Assembly: GCF_000938255.1 (NCBI RefSeq)
Contig: NZ_JYMR01000053.1
Location: 310,001-374,000, forward strand
Source: Bradyrhizobium sp. LTSP849
GTDB lineage: Bacteria; Pseudomonadota; Alphaproteobacteria; Rhizobiales; Xanthobacteraceae
DNA length: 64,000 bases
Direction of reading: 5' to 3'
The notes under the pieces were generated by a model that saw nothing but the letters and a program-made list of their open reading frames with translations, was not told the origin of the DNA and did not search any database. The position numbers were made by a program, and so were the translations under genes. Every line of letters starts with the position of its first letter. The stretch's first letter is position 1. Shown in pieces: positions 59,621-64,000 of this stretch.

Positions 59621-59773
59621 GCCAATGGTTTCGCTACTGTGCATGGGGTTGTTTTCGGCATTTTAGTTTGCCGACCCCGACCAGCCACCCGCTACTTATC
59701 GTCGCGCATGCGTCACGGGCGGGAGAGACTCCACGCCGACGGTCATTCCACCCGACAGATGATTTGAGAAAAA

Positions 59774-59818
59774 TGGTCGGAGCGAGAGGATTTGAACCTC
59801 CGACCCCTAGTCTCCCAG
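59774..59818 (-). other. Attachment site: 3' part of tRNA-Pro (GGG)
   Basis: Read on the minus strand, 45 nt match the 3' half of tRNA-Pro from the anticodon loop (CTGGGAG, anticodon GGG) through the stem ACTAG, variable loop, T arm GGAGGTTCAAATCCTCT... and acceptor CGCTCCG-A-CCA. The 5' half is absent: the anticodon stem partner CTAGT does not follow at 59819. This is the duplicated end left by integration into a tRNA gene; the integrase lies 126 nt away. Confidence 0.85.
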
Positions 59819-59943
59819 TGATGCAATTTCGGTTTCTCGGGGATGCTCAGTAAGCCTCAATTGTTCTCAGAAGTACTTGCACTACAAAGAGATTTGGCGT
59901 CTCGCCTTGTACCGGAACATCCCGTCGGATATCTTGGTATCCG

Positions 59944-61212
59944 ATGCAAAAGTTTCCTCGGGTTTCCCGGAAAGCTCTGACGGACCGTTTTGTCCGGGCG
60001 CTAAAGGCGTCCTCCGATCGGATCGAGATCGGAGACGCCAGTTGCCGGGGCCTATCGATCCGCTGCACCCCCGCCGGCATCAAAACCTGGACGTTTGCCT
60101 ACAAATTGAACGGCCGGATGCGTCGGATCACCCTCGGGGAATATCCTGACCTCGGCCTGGGCGAAGCCCGCGAGCAAGCCGATGAGCGGCGACGGCAGCG
60201 GAACGGCGGGAACGATCCTCGCGCCGTTCAGGATGCCGAACGCGCTACGCAGACTAGGGCGGTGCTGACCTTCGGCGAGCTCTGCGACCTGTACATCGCA
60301 CATGTGAAAGCCAGTGGCAAAATCAGCTGGAAAACCGACGAAGGGTACCTGAAGCGTCCCAAGGCCAAGTTCGGAAAGCGGCCGGCGGTCTCCATCACCA
60401 AACGCGAGCTGATGGACTTCTTCGAAGAGATCGCGCGGACGTCCAAGTGCAGCGCGAACCGGACCCAGTCGACCGTTCGGACCATGTGGGGCTGGGCCGC
60501 GGAACGCGACCACATCCCGATGAACTTCCTCGCCGGACTCAAAAAGGTCGGAGGCAAGGAAACCGAGAAGGATCGCGTGCTCACGGTGGATGAGCTTCGG
60601 GTCCTCCTCAGCGCGCTCAGCGATCCTGAGGTGGAAGCGACCGAAACCGTCCGCCTGGCACTTAAAGGCGTCCTTCTGACCGCCCAACGCCCCGGCGAGG
60701 TGGCAGGGATGATGCTGTCAGAACTCCACGACCTCGACGGCCCTACTCCTCATTGGATCATCCCAAGGCTTCGGACGAAGAACAAGAAGACCGAGCACAC
60801 GGTGCCTTTGTCGCCGACGGCCGTCGACCTAATCCGGCAAGCGCTCGAGCTGAGCGGCAAATATGCAAAGGGCCTGAATGACAAGCCGGTCTTCGCAAGC
60901 CGGTTCGAGAATGTTACCGCCCTCGCCCGCCACTCCCTCAGCCAGGCGGTTAGGCGGATCCTTGACGATAGGCGTTACAAGGATGCATTCGCGAAATTTA
61001 CCCCGCACGACCTACGACGAACCGCCGCGACGCTTGCGCAGTCGTTGCGCATCCAACGTGACTATGTGAAGGCGCTGCTGAATCACACGGACGACGATGT
61101 GACCGCCATCTACGCACGTTGGCACATGTTCGATGAAAAGCGCGAGGCCGCACTGGCGATCGAAGCAGCGTTGTCAAATCTGCCGACGAAGTCGTTGGAA
61201 TTGGCCGCGTGA
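59944..61212 (+). CDS. Tyrosine recombinase integrase (P4 type, DUF4102 arm domain)
   Basis: A 422-aa site-specific integrase. The arm-binding DUF4102 domain is at about 10-95 (GLSIRCTPAGIKTWTFAYKL then GRMRRITLGEYPDLGLGEAR). A SAM-like core-binding domain lies at about 108-200. The catalytic domain carries Arg249 (TAQRPGEVAG), His355 and Arg358 (HDLRRTAATLAQ), His381 and the nucleophile Tyr390 (AIYARW). All key residues are present, so it should be active. It lies beside its tRNA-Pro attachment site, as usual for this family. Confidence 0.96.
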   Translation: MQKFPRVSRKALTDRFVRALKASSDRIEIGDASCRGLSIRCTPAGIKTWTFAYKLNGRMRRITLGEYPDLGLGEAREQADERRRQRNGGNDPRAVQDAERATQTRAVLTFGELCDLYIAHVKASGKISWKTDEGYLKRPKAKFGKRPAVSITKRELMDFFEEIARTSKCSANRTQSTVRTMWGWAAERDHIPMNFLAGLKKVGGKETEKDRVLTVDELRVLLSALSDPEVEATETVRLALKGVLLTAQRPGEVAGMMLSELHDLDGPTPHWIIPRLRTKNKKTEHTVPLSPTAVDLIRQALELSGKYAKGLNDKPVFASRFENVTALARHSLSQAVRRILDDRRYKDAFAKFTPHDLRRTAATLAQSLRIQRDYVKALLNHTDDDVTAIYARWHMFDEKREAALAIEAALSNLPTKSLELAA

Positions 61213-61473: not shown

Positions 61474-61752
61474 GTGTCCAGAATTCAAACCCGCCTTCTG
61501 CCAGATTTTCCAAATGAAAACCGCCTTGGTGATGCGCTTCTTTTCCGCGAGCTGCTCGGGAATCCCGGACGAAGCACCTTCGCCCGCTATCTGTCGCTGG
61601 GCTTGATCCCCCCTCCCGACAAGAAGCTCGGAACATTGAATCGCTGGTACGAAACCACGATCGCGGCCGCGGTCGAGGCGCTACCGACCGCACGACCACT
61701 AAAGGGTGCATCGGGCGAGCCCTCTTCCCCCAATGAAACGGCGGTGGCGTGA
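61474..61752 (+). CDS. Small AlpA/excisionase-like protein
   Basis: A 92-aa protein beginning at GTG 61474. The core LGNPGRSTFARYLSLGLIPP, then PDKKLGTLNRWYETTIAAAV, resembles AlpA/MerR-type small HTH proteins (a helix-turn-helix followed by G-x-L-P-x-P and a conserved R-W after it), which act as excisionases or activators of integrase genes in P4-like elements. Assignment rests on pattern and on position just after an integrase. Its stop overlaps the next start (GTGATGA). Confidence 0.6.
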   Translation: MSRIQTRLLPDFPNENRLGDALLFRELLGNPGRSTFARYLSLGLIPPPDKKLGTLNRWYETTIAAAVEALPTARPLKGASGEPSSPNETAVA

Positions 61753-62276
61753 TGACTCTTGGGCTCATCCCAGAAATCCGGCCCGCCAACGTCGTCTCGT
61801 TCCTCGAGAACGGAGCGGCCTGCGTCATTTTCTTTCCGTACGCGCCAGAACTTACCGAATACGAATGGGAAAAGATCGACGCGGCCCGTCGCGTCCGGTT
61901 CTTCCTCTACGCATGTTCGGACGCACAGGTGCCGCCAGGGGGTTCTGGTGTCGGCGGGAGCTTCGAAGACTACTACCCCGTCACCAGCGTGCGATCTGCG
62001 GTCAACAGATCGACATACATGCGCGCGGAGATCCTGCCCGTCCAAAAGCGTTCGCGCCAAGGGCTGATCGAAGCGCTAATGAGCCTCGCCGCAAAGGTAT
62101 GCGGCGACGATCACCGCTGTGCTCTCCTGGGCGTGACCGATCGCCCGTCTCTTGTCGACGATTACGCGCTCTGTCGACCGCACCCGCGGCTGAAGTTCCG
62201 GCCGAACCTACGTACACGCCAAACGACTTCTGATCGGGACGGTCCAGTGGGAGGCAGCGCGCATGCAGTCCGCTGA
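61749..62276 (+). CDS. Island protein of unknown function, paralogue 1
   Basis: A 175-aa protein: GTG 61749 or ATG 61752 are both possible. The region SFLENGAACVIFFPYAPELT, then EYEWEKIDAARRVRFFLYA, aligns with the same region of the next gene. A Gly/Pro-rich loop (VPPGGSGVGGSFEDYYPV) and a second half with MSLAAKVCGDDHRC follow, and the tail is Arg-rich. Not recognised. Translationally coupled to both neighbours. Confidence 0.65.
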   Translation: MMTLGLIPEIRPANVVSFLENGAACVIFFPYAPELTEYEWEKIDAARRVRFFLYACSDAQVPPGGSGVGGSFEDYYPVTSVRSAVNRSTYMRAEILPVQKRSRQGLIEALMSLAAKVCGDDHRCALLGVTDRPSLVDDYALCRPHPRLKFRPNLRTRQTTSDRDGPVGGSAHAVR

Positions 62277-62766
62277 CATCAACAAGGTGTCGCCGGTGCC
62301 TCATGTACCGTTGCCCGCCATTGCCCTGTCGATTGACGAGGGCATCGCGATGATAACGCTCGAGCCTCACGTGCGGGAGCTGACGGCAGCAGAGAAGAAG
62401 GCCATCCTGGCCGCAAATCGAATCCGGGTTTTCATTGACGCCCGCGTCGCCGGCAACTTGTCGGGGCCGCTGCCCGACCCGATCAAGCTTTCCGATTATC
62501 CAGCCGACACACTTCGGTTCTGCGTCCAACACACCACGCTCGTCTGTGTGGGAGTCGTCGATTGTCGTAAAGAACACTCAGCAGAGGAAATCGAATCGCT
62601 GCTGAGGCAGTTCGACGGGAAGCACGTCGAGGACAGTCGCTTTGTGATCAGGATGCTTACCGATGCGCCGTACGATGTCGGCGATTATATCTCCCGACAC
62701 AGGCCGTACGTACCGTTTCGTGTCGCCTCCCCGCATTACACGGAGACTGAGGAGAGCGACGCGTAA
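62263..62766 (+). CDS. Island protein of unknown function, paralogue 2
   Basis: A 167-aa acidic protein. LSIDEGIAMITLEPHVRELT, then AAEKKAILAANRIRVFIDARV, matches paralogue 1 in spacing and key residues (S-x3-G-A, P-x5-LT-x2-E, AA-x-R-x-R-x-F). The second half (EEIESLLRQFDGKHVEDSRF) differs. It overlaps the previous gene by 14 nt. A terminator follows, so the small-gene cluster of the island ends here. Function unknown. Confidence 0.68.
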   Translation: MQSADINKVSPVPHVPLPAIALSIDEGIAMITLEPHVRELTAAEKKAILAANRIRVFIDARVAGNLSGPLPDPIKLSDYPADTLRFCVQHTTLVCVGVVDCRKEHSAEEIESLLRQFDGKHVEDSRFVIRMLTDAPYDVGDYISRHRPYVPFRVASPHYTETEESDA

Positions 62767-63030: not shown

Positions 63031-63087
63031 GCACGACGCTATTTGCATCGGCTTATGCCAATCCTCGCACCCGTCGAGGTGCGCCAT

Positions 63088-64000
63088 ATGACCGATGCAC
63101 CGAATGTGGAACACGCACTCGACGCCGCCCGCCGCGGCCTCCGCGTGTATCCGTTGGCAGCTAACACCGACGAACCTGCTTTTCCCGAGGCCGACACTGC
63201 GGCCACCACTGACGAAAGCCAGATACGAGAATGGTGGGCCCTCTGGCCAGACGCAAATATCGGCATCGCGACCGACAATTTGCTCGCAATTCGGATTGAT
63301 CCTCGATGCACTGACGAGGTGTTCCGCGACACGCTCGGCACACTATTCCAGCAGCATGGTGGGCGGACCGGTAGCCTCGTGCTCGTGGGAGAGCTCGTCG
63401 GCAGCTACGTCATGTTCGAGCTGCCAGCTGGCGCATTGATGCAAGGCCACTCTAACTTTCTGTCGGAGCACATGAGCATATTGTCGTCTGTCGATGATGT
63501 GCTGATCGGGCCAGGATCCACCATCAACGGTCTCGCCCCTTATCGCTTCCACAATGAGAGATCGCTATCGCCGGCGCCCCCGTGGCTGATGCAAATGTGC
63601 GGCGTCGAGCTGCCTGCAGAAAGCAAGTCAATGAACGTTGTGGCTCTGAAGAAACTCGCGCCAGTGGCACGGACATTGACCCCGATCAAAACAAAACTCG
63701 ATTGGGCGCTCGAAGCCGCGGGGCGCGGTTTCAACGTCTTTCCGATCACGCCGAACGCCAAGATGCCGCCCCTCTTCGCCGATTGGCAGAACAAAGCCAC
63801 ACAGGATCCAAAGCAAATTGATGCGTGGTGGGACGAGTGGCCGGACGCCAACATCGGCGGCGCAACAAATGACTTCGTTGTCGTCGACATCGACCCGCGC
63901 AAAGGCGGTGACCAAACCCTTGAGTTTCTGAGACTCGTTGAAGACTTCCCCGAAACTGCGACGACGAAAACTCAGGGCGGTGGCCAACATCTGCTTTACG
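63088..64000 (+). CDS. Prim-pol (bifunctional primase/polymerase) protein with two tandem modules, 3' end outside window
   Basis: The frame opens at ATG 63088 and is unbroken to the window end (304 codons seen). Module 1 (about 10-185) and module 2 (from about 205) share the same layout: AL.AA.RG..V.P, then EWW(A/D)..WPDANIG, then a DPR motif. Module 2 has the catalytic VVVDIDPRKGG (Asp267, Asp269) and TQGGGQHLLY (His301) of archaeo-eukaryotic primases. Module 1 reads LLAIRIDPR, with Arg69 for the first Asp, and Ser106 at the His position, so it is probably inactive. A helicase domain may follow downstream. Expected role: replication start of the element. Confidence 0.85.
   Translation, partial: MTDAPNVEHALDAARRGLRVYPLAANTDEPAFPEADTAATTDESQIREWWALWPDANIGIATDNLLAIRIDPRCTDEVFRDTLGTLFQQHGGRTGSLVLVGELVGSYVMFELPAGALMQGHSNFLSEHMSILSSVDDVLIGPGSTINGLAPYRFHNERSLSPAPPWLMQMCGVELPAESKSMNVVALKKLAPVARTLTPIKTKLDWALEAAGRGFNVFPITPNAKMPPLFADWQNKATQDPKQIDAWWDEWPDANIGGATNDFVVVDIDPRKGGDQTLEFLRLVEDFPETATTKTQGGGQHLLY

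Follow-up and report, generated by a model that had tools for sequence, protein, structure and literature searches.

A protein with two prim-pol domains, the first lacking catalytic residues, in a tRNA-Pro-integrated element of Bradyrhizobium

The locus and its element

The window analyzed here is a stretch of 64,000 nucleotides of Bradyrhizobium sp. LTSP849 (G000:C49:310001-374000, on a contig of 383639 bases). Its right end holds the 5' part of a gene for a protein with two prim-pol domains (heads 1 and 2), preceded by small ORFs, an integrase gene, and a fragment of a tRNA gene. Related double-headed genes were found in two other elements, one of Bradyrhizobium iriomotense (locus L092) and one of a Hyphomicrobiales MAG (locus L093, the record behind genome G578). 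The features in the window are as follows.

59770..59826, + strand: putative left attachment end, which copies 57 bp of the 3' end of tRNA-Pro(GGG); identical in G578
59944..61212, + strand: tyrosine integrase (Arm-DNA-bind_3 and Phage_integrase in Pfam); 77% identical in G578
61474..61752, + strand: small conserved ORF with a weak PHROG DNA-binding match (E 0.0031); 58% identical in G578
61749..62276, + strand: small ORF resembling the next one (ORF list, alignment)
62263..62766, + strand: small ORF; 52% identical in G578
63088..64000, + strand: 5' part of the 1000-aa double prim-pol/helicase gene (ORF, contig continuation, Pfam)
63115..63585, + strand: head 1, a degenerate prim-pol domain with Arg69, Tyr107, and Ser at the positions of the first Asp, the His, and the third Asp (PF09250, 75.8 bits on the window scan; AlphaFold2 model)
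63706..64000, on to window-equivalent 64161, + strand: head 2, an intact prim-pol domain with D267, D269, H301, and D324 (PF09250, 137 bits)

Both in the window genome and in G578, a 57-bp tRNA fragment lies beside the integrase and an intact tRNA-Pro(GGG) gene lies at the far end, as in elements integrated at a tRNA gene. The intact gene of G578 is on the same contig (135767-135844), and the insertion is therefore about 46 kb long; its right part carries metabolic and other genes, and more than one element may be involved. The intact tRNA-Pro(GGG) gene of the window genome is on contig C28, with a flank that matches the G578 flank, and the element seems to be split over contigs in this assembly.

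The genes 3' of the double-headed gene are an ORF whose zinc-ribbon match is below threshold, a conserved 181-aa ORF, and a serine recombinase gene. The window and G578 have a common gene order, with identities of 77% for the integrase, 69% for the 181-aa ORF, and 84% for the recombinase. B. iriomotense shares with the window the primase (58%), the 181-aa ORF (69%), the recombinase (94%), and small ORFs; the integrase near its double-headed gene is of another type (25% identity). In each of the three elements the 181-aa ORF lies close to the replication gene (L003:13040-13582, L091:14422-14946, and L092:10001-10504; 66 to 69% identity), and its window copy matched nothing in PHROG or NCBIfam at E 0.01 and nothing in Pfam above the cut-off. 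Farther downstream of the element's serine recombinase, near the contig end, are transposase genes that we take to be IS66-like (L003:17166-19604).

Several smaller observations concern the neighborhood. The ORFs at 61749-62276 and 62263-62766 look paralogous, both aligning with a single G578 ORF (32% and 52%), and L092 has similar ORFs. A large ORF of unclear family (L091:17392-19038, L092:18849-20411, and G000:C29:7205-8893) is 87% identical over 453 residues between the window genome and B. iriomotense. In B. iriomotense it adjoins a phage tail-collar gene, which hints at phage ancestry; a comparison of its L092 copy with phage records gave no match. Models of defense systems matched none of the four proteins that were compared with them. 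A promoter scan of the 2.1 kb 5' of the double-headed gene gave no promoter-like site, and the same 2.1 kb contained 6 terminator-like sites versus 2.0 in shuffled sequences.

Two prim-pol domains in one reading frame

In the ORF list of the 64-kb window, the frame that starts with ATG at 63088 is open beyond the window's end. In the contig sequence past the window it ends at window-equivalent 66090, giving a protein of 1000 aa; a TTG at 63043 is an alternative start upstream. Pfam assigns PF09250 to residues 10-166 and 207-358, PriCT_1 to 394-455 (30.3 bits), and DUF3987 to 541-887 (185.6 bits), all above the cut-offs. With PriCT-1 and a helicase after the prim-pol domain, the protein has the composition of a mobile-element replication protein of the prim-pol/helicase type.

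An earlier note, made from the letters of the window, had described two copies of one prim-pol pattern in a single frame and had called the first copy a degenerate primase module. Both statements were borne out. WPDANIG and a DPR motif are present in both heads, and the VDDVLIGPGSTINGLAPYRF block that the note had seen retained in head 1 is there. When each half was searched separately, PF09250 matched head 1 with 75.5 bits (residues 10-166, profile positions 1-158) and head 2 with 136.5 bits (profile positions 1-158), both far beyond chance at a curated cut-off of 22.8 bits. The AlphaFold2 model of head 1, built from an alignment of 24 rows that included other prim-pols, had a mean pLDDT of 85.1 and a pTM of 0.78 and has the prim-pol fold. 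Its best matches among solved structures were those of the pRN1 primase (Foldseek E 1.5e-6); against pRN1 ORF904 it gave a Z score of 11.7 and an rmsd of 3.6 over 163 residues. Chance resemblance of the first half to a prim-pol was ruled out by the profile and the model together.

For the B. iriomotense protein, residues 1-500 were modeled from a 16-row alignment (mean pLDDT 80). Strands and helices follow one another in this model as in two prim-pol domains and then a helical bundle, but the placement of the heads relative to each other is not fixed (pTM 0.48).

To place the catalytic residues, we aligned 90 prim-pol domains of the retrieved loci, the three head 1s and 87 others. These came from 143 domain hits, of which 6 were dropped (fewer than 50 bits or fewer than 120 positions); identical strings and repeat loci were entered once, and the three tandem proteins were included regardless. 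Among the 87, which were chosen by a profile of mostly intact domains, the first motif-I position was D in 84 and E in 3; the second was D in 85, E in 1, and K in 1; the motif II position was H in 86 and Q in 1; and the third acidic position was D in 81, N in 4, H in 1, and E in 1. The pattern was unchanged in the 81 domains that remained after merging those 90% alike (78 D, 79 D, 80 H, and 75 D).

Head 2 has the complete catalytic set in all three elements; in the window protein this is a full-length PF09250 match with D-x-D, GGxH, and the third Asp. The catalytic columns of head 1 read R, D, Y, S in the window; D, D, F, S in B. iriomotense; and R, S, F, R in the MAG. Thus, the motif-II His and the third Asp are lost from all three intact head 1s, and D-x-D survives in B. 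iriomotense only, as D-F-D. The window copy keeps the second Asp of the motif (R-I-D) and has Ser opposite Asp324. The earlier note's assignments of D267, D269, and H301 in head 2 and of Arg69 in head 1 agree with the alignments, as does the loss of the His; the residue opposite His301 is Tyr107, however, and not the Ser106 named there. Head 1 is a prim-pol by its full-length match and its fold, and it lacks the combination of D-x-D, His, and third Asp that characterizes an active archaeo-eukaryotic primase.

By sequence, the likeness to pRN1 ORF904 is slight. A head 2 profile aligned its catalytic positions with those of ORF904 at a weak E value of 0.013, with unrelated chains at similar values, and a profile made from the three head 1s alone met ORF904 at E 0.48.

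Many of the residues that are invariant in the three head 1s occupy positions common to prim-pols, e.g., N57-I58-G59, P142, and S144. L66, L112, and G141 are also invariant and occur in 7 to 15% of the other domains; G101 and D137 occur in 0 of the 87, but three sequences say little about any one residue. Beyond the aligned domain, the head 1s have an invariant tail after W166. Their net charges are -10, -8, and -4, versus a mean of -0.4 (standard deviation, 4.3; range, -10 to 13) for 84 other prim-pols. Because head 2 of the same proteins is also acidic (-5, -6, and -1), charge is weak evidence on the role of head 1.

Occurrence and evolution of the double-headed proteins

Within the searched data there were three intact double-headed members (window, B. 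iriomotense, and MAG) and one relic (in genome G522). In each genome search a limited number of candidates was scored per genome, and the following counts hold for the scored candidates. Of 195 genomes of the genus searched with PF09250, 2 (G000 and G578) had a frame with two heads. With a head 1 profile, two heads were found in 3 of 265 genomes of the genus (G000, G578, and G947, which is apparently the B. iriomotense genome that was also met as G582), and the same search returned a lone fragment in G522. Over the order, the head 1 profile (E up to 1e-5) gave two heads in 1 of 397 genomes, and over the phylum, PF09250 gave two heads in 1 of 398; in both cases this was the window's own genome. 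Head 1 alone, compared with 197 relatives, matched in 25 genomes, with the best match beyond the window genome at 39 bits and 31% identity. The whole protein had a match in 28 of the 397 genomes of the order, and among the matches listed outside G000 none covers both heads. L092 and L093 were reached by a scan of the genome collection with the neighboring 181-aa ORF as the query.

Scans of viral contigs returned 11, 14, and 1 loci, the last being a contig already found. None of these loci has two heads, and no relatives of the 181-aa ORF were found among the viral contigs. When two profiles were run over 174 loci, 148 frames had a prim-pol at E < 1e-5 and 15 had two, all from the loci of the three elements; this two-head count covers the loci, with the phage and plasmid matches (107, 617, 20, and 260 records) and 487 viral structure matches standing outside it. 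The N-terminal part of a long frame in L021 contained no prim-pol. B. iriomotense carries a second, single-headed prim-pol gene (G582:C45:42519-42965) about 11 kb from the double-headed one.

The G522 relic (L172; G522:C125:58001-78000) consists of integrase pieces followed by a segment corresponding to primase residues 21-175 (88% identity) and another corresponding to residues 752-955 (84% identity). The earlier note had asked whether close homologues have an intact first head, with the losses being a recent mutation; none that we met is fully intact. A recent mutation private to this genome is rejected by the degenerate head 1 at 88% identity in the relic and by the diverged form in the two other elements.

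Between the window and the relic, head 1 has a dN of 0.065, a dS of 0.202, and a dN/dS of 0.32 (bootstrap 5 to 95%, 0.18 to 0.56), the comparison copy being broken; the helicase piece has a dN/dS of 0.39 (0.24 to 0.57). Among the intact elements, head 1 differs at 0.36 to 0.45 of second and 0.70 to 0.74 of third codon positions, versus 0.14 to 0.23 and 0.53 to 0.62 for head 2. Protein identity is 32 to 39% for head 1 (pairwise, 0.39, 0.39, and 0.32) and 58 to 70% for head 2. From these sequence comparisons, head 1 appears to be constrained, but less so than head 2.

In the tree the head 1s form one clade (bootstrap 99/SH-aLRT 93) and the head 2s form a separate one (100/99), with bootstrap values that had not settled in either case. 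B. iriomotense is outermost among the head 1s, which agrees with its kept D-F-D. Grouping the head 1s and head 2s together was not rejected (AU P = 0.389), and head 1 may have arisen either by duplication of head 2 or by fusion of a second prim-pol. The groupings conflict: head 1 joins the window and the MAG, head 2 joins B. iriomotense and the MAG, and helicase type joins the window and B. iriomotense. The parts may therefore have recombined, or long branches may mislead.

The helicase domain is DUF3987 in the window and B. iriomotense and AAA_25 in the MAG (Pfam), and the double head is kept in all. The helicase halves thus differ between otherwise syntenic elements (L003:10708-11748 versus L093:7908-8462). 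PriCT_1 was absent from the Pfam listing of L092 and L093 at E 0.1. The bacterial primases studied in PMC5862659 are reported to be almost only on mobile elements, with varied helicases.

A candidate origin and the possible role of the first head

Directly 3' of the stop codon, each of the three elements has inverted arms and iteron-like repeats, as follows.

L003:12091-12283 (window-equivalent 66091-66283): arms and repeats, window genome
L092:9636-9747: arms and repeats, B. iriomotense
L093:9108-9192: arms and repeats, MAG

The repeat of the window genome is TTGTCACCG; one of its 8-mers is present 5 times within 200 bp, a count reached in 0 of 1,000 shuffles, and the arms are 16 bp and perfect. 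The B. iriomotense motif is of the same type; there a 17-bp perfect inverted repeat stands out, and the 8-mer count is ordinary (318 of 1,000 shuffles). The MAG has a different motif, ACTTCCTC, which occurs 5 times after the stop (0 of 1,000 shuffles) and 2 more times in the end of the gene, with 14-bp arms. The 200 bp after the stop were picked after the repeats had been seen, and these shuffles are not a blind test. DNA folding gave z scores of -6.2, -6.0, and -2.3 for the three elements, in stretches that were chosen around the arms. The repeats of the window genome are traversed by an ORF (12087-12899 of L003) that also overlaps the stop codon of the primase gene, and so the stretch need not be noncoding. 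Replication of pRN1 needs a stem-loop of 100 nt downstream of orf904 (accessible part of PMC4234260). We consider the stem-loops after the gene to be candidate origins, judging from their sequence. Repeat type follows helicase type and not head 1, albeit among three elements only: the two with DUF3987 have similar repeats, and the one with AAA_25 has others.

We tentatively read the protein as the element's replication initiator with head 1 as a noncatalytic, cis-acting architectural or partner domain, and give this somewhat less than an even chance. The polypeptide would be the initiator of a mobile element integrated at tRNA-Pro; head 2 would make the primer, and the C-terminal helicase part would select and open the stem-loop origin. 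Head 1 would do no chemistry. It would position head 2, the PriCT bundle, or neighboring subunits of a helicase assembly, or it would dock another replication protein. It would descend from a second prim-pol, gained by duplication or fusion, that lost the His and the third Asp first and D-x-D later. The two-domain profiles, the shared architecture in L092 and L093, the prim-pol fold of head 1, the catalytic loss in head 1 only, the single clade, the signs of selection, the invariant G101 and D137, and the stem-loops with repeats that track the helicase support this reading. Against it are the small number of intact members (three) and the faster divergence of head 1, which also fits relaxed constraint, as well as the D-F-D kept by the B. 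iriomotense head 1, the loose placement of the heads in the two-head model, a dN/dS taken against a broken copy, an acidity that head 2 partly shares, and the E value of 0.48 at which the head 1 profile meets ORF904.

Prim-pol folds bind DNA, and head 1 keeps N57-I58-G59, P142, and S144, while a stem-loop with repeats adjoins the gene; head 1 could therefore be a noncatalytic binder that grips the template, the primer, or the origin stem-loop. We consider this unlikely. The window and B. iriomotense have one repeat motif and the MAG has another, despite head 1 identities of similar size in all three pairs, and this tracking of the helicase leans against head 1 as the origin binder; the acidity of head 1 points the same way, although head 2 shares it. 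The earlier note had proposed a template-, primer-, or partner-binding domain, and of these the first two lose ground with the repeats, whereas partner binding is compatible with the architectural reading. Improbable in our judgment is a regulatory head 1, whether as a brake on head 2 or on the helicase or as a nucleotide sensor. Its position in cis directly ahead of the active head would suit such a role, and mpox E5, with a single AEP domain in each chain, offers a precedent in that the N-terminal AEP domains on its helicase ring inhibit unwinding (accessible part of PMC11196578); yet no inhibitory contact was seen in the B. iriomotense model, in which head placement is not confidently predicted.

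That head 1 is a decaying, functionless leftover, yet to be lost, would account for its faster divergence than head 2, for the stepwise loss of catalytic residues, and for the existence of one relic. Nevertheless, the frames are open in three elements though the third codon positions of head 1 look saturated relative to the second, and the upper bootstrap bound of its dN/dS is below 0.6 (0.56); we regard decay as distinctly improbable. It is very improbable indeed that head 1 retains primase/polymerase activity, weak or altered, by way of other residues. The motif-II His does vary in some AEP families, as does motif III in RepE/RepS (PMC5862659), and B. iriomotense keeps D-F-D. However, three catalytic residues are missing at once from the window head 1 (one motif-I Asp, the His, and the third Asp), and the DID-to-LIL mutant of PolpTN2 is inactive (PMC5862659).

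The protein may be a cis-acting pseudo-primase, in which a catalysis-dead prim-pol serves an active prim-pol of the same polypeptide as a structural or regulatory partner, and the mobile element would then have made a two-subunit-style primase from two prim-pol folds; we regard this reading as possible rather than probable. Primases are usually seen as one catalytic fold with unrelated helpers; in this protein a dead copy of that fold would itself be the helper. DNA polymerase epsilon keeps a dead copy of its catalytic domain, in an unrelated fold and as an analogy only. Animal TWINKLE is likewise a replication protein with a dead copy of a catalytic domain (accessible part of PMC3610141), again of unrelated fold and an analogy only. 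The heterodimeric primases (PriS with PriL/PriX) resemble our proposal in pairing a catalytic part with a noncatalytic partner, but the relatives of PriX and of the Fe-S domain of PriL are PriCT domains, not a degenerate prim-pol fold (accessible part of PMC5862659).

Proteins that combine PF09250 with a DUF3987 or RepA/AAA_25-type helicase have the same layout of head 2, PriCT-1, and helicase, but without the second, degenerate head in front; the PrimQH and all3500 families have varied helicases, including DUF3987 and RepA (accessible part of PMC5862659). pRN1 ORF904 (PDB 1RNI and 3M1M) is similar in the head 2 catalytic positions and the head 1 model, as described above, and in the large stem-loop, here a predicted one, downstream of the replication gene; it differs in having a superfamily 3 helicase, whereas here there are two heads with DUF3987 (window and L092) or AAA_25 (L093) (accessible part of PMC4234260). 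Among the papers listed from the literature searched, with most subscription journals outside it, none described a double, tandem, duplicated, or inactive prim-pol/AEP, a negative of little weight. The main text of PMC5862659 is without the words tandem, duplicat(ed), and inactivated, and the accessible parts of PMC6563490 and PMC3218068 have no double prim-pol. PMC8718748 mentions no dimer, hexamer, or oligomer. In the available portions of two prim-pol reviews, the words tandem, dimer, and inactive (PMC10345425) and tandem, inactive, and inactivated (PMC4538821) are absent, and the phrase "two AEP domains" in the accessible part of PMC11196578 concerns different chains and not one double protein. 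The prim-pol/helicase initiator type is known, and the dead-head variant looks new.

The B. iriomotense head 1, with D-x-D kept and the His and third Asp gone, looks like an evolutionary intermediate, which makes the origin of a pseudo-enzyme traceable. The system is small and has a compact candidate origin, and the role of the dead head is directly testable in it. The elements also provide a natural comparison, in which helicase and repeats differ and the heads are kept, for finding which part of the initiator chooses the origin.
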